This document shows positions 47,215-47,944 of a stretch of 64,000 nt of DNA, in pieces. Below the pieces are notes generated by a model that saw only the letters and a list, made by a program, of their open reading frames with translations, made no database searches and was not told the DNA's origin. Positions within the stretch are counted from its first letter, which is position 1, and every line of letters starts with the position of its first letter. The position numbers were made by a program, and so were the translations under genes. The stretch is from Rhizobiales bacterium TNE-4 (GTDB lineage: Bacteria > Pseudomonadota > Alphaproteobacteria > Rhizobiales > Beijerinckiaceae), in the NCBI GenBank assembly GCA_019083985.1, contig JAHRCV010000001.1:310001-374000 (forward strand), given 5' to 3'.

Positions 47215-47218
47215 ACCC

Positions 47219-47258
47219 CGTCATTGCGAGGAGGGTTTGAGCCGAACGCAGCAATCCA
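47219..47258 (+). repeat. Interspersed repeat of the CGTCATTGCGAGGAG...GCAATCCA type
   Basis: CGTCATTGCGAGGAG at 47219-47233 and GCAATCCA at 47251-47258, five bases after rnhA, match a short repeat I recognise from intergenic regions of many Hyphomicrobiales. Only this copy was found in the window. No coding potential. Confidence 0.5.
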
Positions 47259-47341
47259 TAAATCAGCAAGTATCCCGTCGCCTCGCGTCTCTTGATGACG
47301 TGCGGTAACGTCTCACAAAATTGCATCATACGCCTCAAGCT

Positions 47342-47387
47342 CTCATCCTGAGGAGCGCGACAACGCGCGCGTCTCGAAGGACGAGGG
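47342..47387 (+). repeat. Palindromic repeat copy A
   Basis: 46 bases, from CTCATCCTGAGGAGCG to CGTCTCGAAGGACGAGGG. It is a near-identical direct copy of repeat C (47813-47861) and an inverted copy of repeat B (47412-47460). Copies A and B, 24 bases apart, could fold together into a long stem whose outer 18 and inner 16 bases pair perfectly. Confidence 0.85.
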
Positions 47388-47411
47388 CGTGGTTCAAGCG
47401 CAAGCTGGTCT

Positions 47412-47460
47412 CCCTCGTCCTTCGAGACGCGACGCTATGCATCGCTCCTCAGGATGAGGG
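47412..47460 (-). repeat. Palindromic repeat copy B, inverted
   Basis: 49 bases; read on the minus strand it starts CCCTCATCCTGAGGAGCG and ends CGTCTCGAAGGACGAGGG, as does copy C. It covers the last 12 bases of the GIY-YIG gene and supplies its stop codon (the TGA of CCTGAGG). Confidence 0.87.
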
Positions 47461-47763
47461 GTGTGGGTTTCGCTTAAGAATTTTTCGTTTTGCTAACATT
47501 TGTAAACCGGAAAAGTCTTCTCGCATGAAGGCCTCTTTCTTGGCACGGCTCCAGCCTTTGAGTTGGCGCTCAAGCGAGATCGCATCAATGATCTCGTCAA
47601 AATATTCTGCGTATATCAGCGCAACCGGACGGCGCGAATAGGTATAGGCTTTTACGTCTAGACCCGCATTGTGTTCGCTTAACCGCGTTTCTGGTTCATT
47701 ATGGGTTGAGCCAACATAATAGGATTTATCGGAACAAAGAAGAATATAGACCCATTTGCCCAT
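47449..47763 (-). CDS. GIY-YIG domain nuclease, repeat-bounded
   Basis: A 104-residue single-domain GIY-YIG protein (UPF0213-like). Family residues: VYILL (5-9, Tyr 6), YYVGST (15-20), Arg 27 in ETRLSEHN with His 31, and Glu 65 in SLERQLKGWSRAKKEA, the metal-binding glutamate. ATG 47763 is used because AAGGAG lies seven bases upstream. The last three codons (PSS) and the stop are inside repeat copy B, and copy C lies 50 bases before the start, so the gene is enclosed by inverted repeats. Cell role is unknown; homologous small proteins are often annotated only as GIY-YIG or UvrC-like. Confidence 0.88.
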   Translation of the reverse strand: MGKWVYILLCSDKSYYVGSTHNEPETRLSEHNAGLDVKAYTYSRRPVALIYAEYFDEIIDAISLERQLKGWSRAKKEAFMREDFSGLQMLAKRKILKRNPHPSS

Positions 47764-47812
47764 CGCGCTCTCCTTAAAGTGAACGCAATACAAAATGAGG
47801 CTCATCTCAATA

Positions 47813-47861
47813 CCCTCATCCTGAGGAGCGCGACAACGTCGCGCGTCTCGAAGGACGAGGG
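47813..47861 (+). repeat. Palindromic repeat copy C
   Basis: 49 bases, CCCTCATCCTGAGGAGCG to CGTCTCGAAGGACGAGGG. The centre GCGCGAC-AAC-GTCGCGC is a perfect 7-bp hairpin, and the outer arms also pair imperfectly, so the whole repeat folds back on itself. It lies 50 bases before the GIY-YIG start and 84 bases past the glyS stop. Confidence 0.87.
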
Positions 47862-47944
47862 AAATCCGTTGGCGCCATCAGACGCCCTGGTTCCGTCGCT
47901 GCGCATTGTTCAAGCAACGCACTTCAGGACGAGGGCTTGAGGCT

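Follow-up and report, generated by a model that had tools for sequence, protein, structure and literature searches.

The locus between rnhA and glyS

The window, a stretch of 64,000 nucleotides from the genome of Rhizobiales bacterium TNE-4, carries between rnhA and glyS a small GIY-YIG nuclease gene that is enclosed by copies of a palindromic repeat. The features of this region are as follows.

47218..47259, plus strand: CGTC-type REP (CGTCATTGCGAGGAG...CGCAGCAATCCA, compared with the description in PMC3733652), a different repeat family that adjoins the insert
47242..47932, no strand: 691 bases that are extra relative to the sister species G053, missing at its rnhA-glyS junction
47341..47459, no strand: composite of copy A, a 24-nt spacer and copy B; one long, REPIN-like hairpin, an arrangement that recurs at dispersed loci
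47342..47387, plus strand: palindromic repeat copy A, on the downstream side of the nuclease gene
47412..47459, minus strand: palindromic repeat copy B, on the downstream side of the nuclease gene, containing its stop
47449..47763, minus strand: GIY-YIG nuclease gene, 104 aa (PF01541, E 9e-18; catalytic residues kept in 26 homologues; AF2 pLDDT 87)
47814..47862, plus strand: palindromic repeat copy C, on the upstream side of the nuclease gene (fold z -4.2)
47919..47934, minus strand: degenerate arm beyond C, with 3 mismatches to the repeat arm; it belongs to a probable fourth copy D that makes an inverted pair with C

The palindromes A, B and C are 45-49 nt long. A search of the window with their arms (CCTCATCCTGAGGAGC and CGTCTCGAAGGACGAGG), allowing at most 3 mismatches, gives 5 and 3 hits, where shuffled sequences lead one to expect 0.6 and 0.2. 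The layout is that described in the initial annotation: B and C are mutually inverted and enclose the one gene, A lies 24 nt outside B, and B supplies the last codons and the stop of the protein (CCC TCA TCC TGA, stop at 47449-47451). Each copy also folds as a hairpin, as was stated there, and this single-copy folding is modest (z -2.2, -3.1 and -4.2 for A, B and C). The listed open reading frame starts at 47805; an ATG at 47763 is preceded by a Shine-Dalgarno-like AGGAG and is for that reason probably the true start, giving a protein of 104 aa.

The nuclease appears to be intact. Its PF01541 domain carries the catalytic Tyr, Arg and Glu by which members of the GIY-YIG superfamily are recognised, and the residues that are invariant in 26 homologues include G18, R27, H31 and E65, consistent with the known catalytic set of the fold. 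The best structural matches of the AF2 model are UPF0213 proteins, followed by Slx1, a nuclease that cuts branched DNA. GIY-YIG matches in the TNE-4 genome comprise this one standalone gene and one 680-aa frame, which by its size is UvrC. Viral contigs yielded no relatives, and PADLOC, PHROGs and NCBIfam gave no match. The homing of group I intron-type elements, to which the initial annotation had appealed, finds no sign here, since the gene lies between other genes, no intron was found and Rfam has no match in the rnhA-glyS region.

Copies and structure of the repeat

The 15-nt arm has 39 exact and 97 near matches in the TNE-4 genome, counts that rest on sequence searches together with extracted stretches. 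Since there is one standalone gene to 39 exact arm copies, most copies lie far from the gene, as they do in RAYT systems. Inverted pairs about 100-120 bp apart are common among these copies. A and B form one such pair, and when folded together as DNA they yield a single long hairpin (-51.8 kcal/mol, z -11), a composite that is found again at dispersed loci elsewhere in the genome.

The consensus drawn from the genome's own copies is CTCAT-NN-TGAGGAG-(variable stem-loop)-GTCTCGAA-N'N'-ACGAG, in which the two dinucleotides covary, CC occurring with GG 25 times and GG with CC 12 times. Among 17 distinct 45-nt copies, 98.7% of the stem cells are paired and 7 of the 14 stem pairs have changed on both sides, a result matched by none of 500 shuffles (0/500), and the internal loop of GAGGA opposite GTCTCGA is invariant across copies. 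Covarying stems around a fixed internal loop are what would be expected if the folded strand were the object recognised, and the TnpA-REP of E. coli likewise needs an imperfect palindrome with a bulge (PMC8266576). Judged by this covariation, the hairpin structure of the repeat is under constraint. The variable dinucleotide within a constant hairpin also constitutes a natural specificity series for what may be a single-strand nuclease.

Repeats at the sides of homologous genes

The association between gene and repeat was followed through the 30 best same-family homologues and 80 named loci, together 104 distinct proteins. The named loci are mostly from Alphaproteobacteria, including Bradyrhizobium, Methylobacterium, Methylocystis, Caulobacter, Bosea, Reyranella and others. 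The motif CAT-NN-TGAG, in which T may be C, was found within 250 bp on at least one side in 100 of the 104 distinct homologues and on both sides in 78 of 104, against a background of 0.05 per 250 bp (about 5% per side) in the more distant parts of these loci. A motif-free test, in which the 5' flank is aligned to the reverse complement of the 3' flank and the threshold is the largest shuffle, as fixed on the 30 best homologues, was passed by 24 of those 30 and by 64 of the 80 named loci. The controls gave no signal: 0/30 for rnhA, 0/6 for YhbQ-like genes and 0/4 for other GIY-YIG genes (0/10 for the last two groups together). As in a REPtron, then, the enzyme gene is flanked by repeats of which dispersed copies exist elsewhere.

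These controls bear on the notion that selection maintains the palindromes to terminate transcription or to stabilise mRNA 3' ends, their adjacency to the gene being incidental. Such a function would suit the overlap of copy B with the stop codon and the frequent position of REPs just 3' of genes (PMC3733652); however, copies occur upstream as well as downstream, Rfam recognises nothing in the region, the presence of the nuclease is tracked by repeat number (see below), and the gene-class specificity of the flank signal contradicts it. Terminator or stabiliser function is thus extremely improbable as an explanation of the association.

Window-class repeats are of three types (i, TGAGGAG; ii, TGAGG[TC]GC; iii, TGAGC..G), and the upstream and downstream repeats are of identical type in 71 of 72 loci, where 24.8 were expected and the largest shuffle gave 38. 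On the protein tree, repeat type changes 11 times, compared with a shuffled mean of 41.7 and a minimum of 36. Nine instead of eight residues separate the YxG strand from the conserved Arg in 31 of 34 proteins with type ii repeats and in 3 of 41 with type i; the raw link is strong, and coevolution of loop length with repeat type was set aside because there were not enough independent pairs to exclude common descent.

Instability of the gene-repeat unit is visible at several sites. In G113 (L087) two tandem 0.7-kb nuclease-repeat units of about 91% identity lie some 0.7 kb apart at a site that holds one unit in G017. G040 (L055) and G076 (L058) carry the nuclease-repeat segment in opposite orientations at one chromosomal site, where the flanks are 94% and 88% identical and the gene segment only 79%. 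Interrupted copies of the gene are present in other genomes.

Three homologues are in metagenome bins assigned to other phyla, namely Candidatus Cloacimonadota MAGs (L279, L295) and a Chloroflexi MAG (L300), reflecting either horizontal transfer or binning error. On a plasmid of Sphingomonas parapaucimobilis (L335, 1340-1510 and 2540-2720), nrdR and a gene for an RNA methyltransferase have a homologue of the window class between them, and the palindrome near this homologue is of another type (GGGCTTCGACTTCGCTCAGCCTGAACG).

Nuclease presence, repeat number and empty sites

The number of arm matches per genome has a median of 73 in 30 genomes with the nuclease versus 5.5 in 30 without it (Mann-Whitney p 1.5e-10, uncorrected for phylogeny). 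Both the nuclease and the repeats are missing from two further species in the genus of TNE-4. Exceptions to this coupling are G049 and G007, which have repeats and only a second-class GIY-YIG gene (described below), that of G049 being interrupted by a stop; several dRS3-rich genomes, moreover, have only UvrC-sized GIY-YIG matches.

The empty-site comparison at rnhA-glyS that the initial annotation proposed revealed an empty junction. In G053, one of the two sister species that lack nuclease and repeats, whose RnhA is 97% identical, the rnhA-glyS gap is about 45 bp long and holds neither gene nor repeat. At eight other syntenic gaps that bear a repeat in TNE-4, the repeat is missing in G053, except for a related fragment at L020. 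The gene and repeats behave as lineage-specific insertions, and it is possible that loss in the sisters, instead of gain here, accounts for the pattern. No safe target-site duplication was found at the 691-base insert. One candidate, GGGYTTGAG, lies on both sides of the insert and has a single occurrence in G053; it was not accepted because it is also part of the end of the repeat itself (elsewhere ATGAGGGCTTGAG) and of the loop of the neighbouring CGTC REP.

A second GIY-YIG class with its own repeats

A second class of standalone GIY-YIG proteins, with the signature VYILASxxNGTLYxGVT, has classical CGTC-tagged REPs or dRS3-type repeats at its sides (L063-L082, L134, L135, L138, L140, L144, L160, L308, L309). 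It passes the motif-free flank test in 17 of 20 loci and in 6 of 6 loci from distant Pseudomonadota (23/26 in total), the six having been drawn from genomes picked for dRS3 richness, so that they illustrate rather than test the association. This class had been intended as a negative control; as it proved to have CGTC REPs at its sides, the YhbQ-like, other GIY-YIG and rnhA genes were used instead. TNE-4 has no second-class gene despite its CGTC-type REPs, which are also present at other repeat sites and in G053.

Dispersed palindromic repeats abound in the genomes of Alphaproteobacteria, and according to the survey of Di Nocera et al. (2013) CGTC REPs have no dedicated enzyme or transposase (PMC3733652). 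A CGTC-tagged REP is recognised by an unpaired CGTC, TGTC or CCTC tag at one end and a short tail that is likewise unpaired. In many of those repeats the CGTC tag is changed to CCTC (PMC3733652); the window repeat has CCTC before AT, yet its opposite GAGG end pairs with the CCTC. The existence of two standalone GIY-YIG classes, each between its own repeat type, makes it directly testable what produces and what uses these repeats.

A further explanation would have a HUH/RAYT (TnpA-REP) transposase spreading these repeats as ordinary REPs, the nuclease gene having merely landed in a repeat-rich gap. The architecture is indeed REP-like, and RAYT systems look alike (PMC8266576, PMC3733652). However, a match to Y1_Tnp (PF01797) is absent from the TNE-4 genome, which thus has no sign of the enzyme of a RAYT-type REPtron, and from 20 of 30 nuclease-bearing genomes; in addition, a flank signal limited to two GIY-YIG classes, with none at rnhA or YhbQ-like genes, contradicts a chance landing. 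Mobilisation by a RAYT is accordingly very unlikely.

Interpretation

Flanking by repeats, matched subtypes, coupling across lineages, hairpin covariation and an empty site together establish a conserved and specific partnership between this gene and this repeat. The locus is probably an enzyme-target pair, REPtron-like in organisation, in which a GIY-YIG nuclease is matched with a repeat family recognised as folded single-stranded DNA; the components are most likely a nuclease specific for single strands and the hairpins cognate to it. The nuclease would nick the hairpin on single-stranded DNA, either on the lagging strand or on DNA entering the cell. The nick would fall within or close to the invariant GAGGA / GTCTCGA internal loop, and repair or capture at such nicks could spread the repeats and sometimes also the gene that they flank. 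Cutting may instead, or also, control the uptake or recombination of single-stranded DNA, as is said of Ssn in Neisseria.

Two versions of the enzyme-target pairing differ in what the nuclease does for its repeats. It may, tentatively, itself copy the palindromes to new places in the genome, and at times its own repeat-flanked gene with them; if true, this would amount to a REP-mobilising system built on a nuclease unrelated to HUH transposases, and this nuclease would be the missing dedicated partner of alphaproteobacterial REPs. The initial annotation had proposed such a GIY-YIG counterpart of the REP-RAYT pair. The association on which it was built is strongly supported by flanking, subtypes, repeat number and the empty site, and neither of the patterns named there as refuting it was seen, the homologues being nearly always repeat-flanked and the rnhA and YhbQ-like genes without signal. 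Action of the nuclease on the palindromes and transposition of the gene-repeat unit are the conjectural parts of the proposal, and no safe target-site duplication was found. Alternatively, nuclease and repeats may only regulate single-stranded-DNA uptake or recombination, in natural transformation or conjugation, with the repeats spreading otherwise. This is the function reportedly served by the Neisseria Ssn with its dRS3-like repeats, and dRS3-type repeats do flank second-class GIY-YIG genes in distant genomes; a purely regulatory role is nevertheless rather unlikely, as it leaves the lineage-specific insertion of gene and repeats unexplained.

Comparison with known systems

The REP-RAYT (TnpA-REP) REPtrons share with this locus a gene flanked by inverted copies, dispersed non-autonomous copies and matched subtypes. 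They differ in that the window enzyme is GIY-YIG and not HUH (Y1), the GTAG tag is lacking and no HUH gene was found in the genome. The CGTC-tagged REPs are likewise alphaproteobacterial palindromes with head-to-head dimers and no known transposase (PMC3733652), whereas the window repeat starts with CCTCAT and its GAGG end is paired in place of a free CCA tail; moreover, no partner gene was reported for them in 2013 (PMC3733652), while here the repeats flank GIY-YIG genes. The window protein resembles UPF0213 proteins and Slx1 in fold; unlike Slx1, it is bacterial, repeat-associated and without an Slx4 partner.

Nothing in the literature searched linked GIY-YIG proteins to REPs. The closest known kind is the Ssn family, said to be the subject of a paper in Nature Communications in 2025. 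Ssn of Neisseria is reportedly a GIY-YIG nuclease specific for single-stranded DNA that acts at a highly repeated sequence (in N. meningitidis the NTS, dRS3-like) and is said to control the uptake or recombination of such DNA; many homologues reportedly have other targets, each its own sequence. The likeness lies in a small standalone GIY-YIG protein paired with a palindrome repeated many times in the same genome, here with the 39 exact and 97 near arm matches. The second class described here, with dRS3 or CGTC repeats at its sides, fits this description of Ssn; the window protein is of a different GIY-YIG class. The target also differs in architecture, having two arms plus an internal loop and commonly occurring as inverted pairs. 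Thus, the window class stands nearest to Ssn while probably differing from it in protein class and target architecture, and the Ssn paper may already include it.
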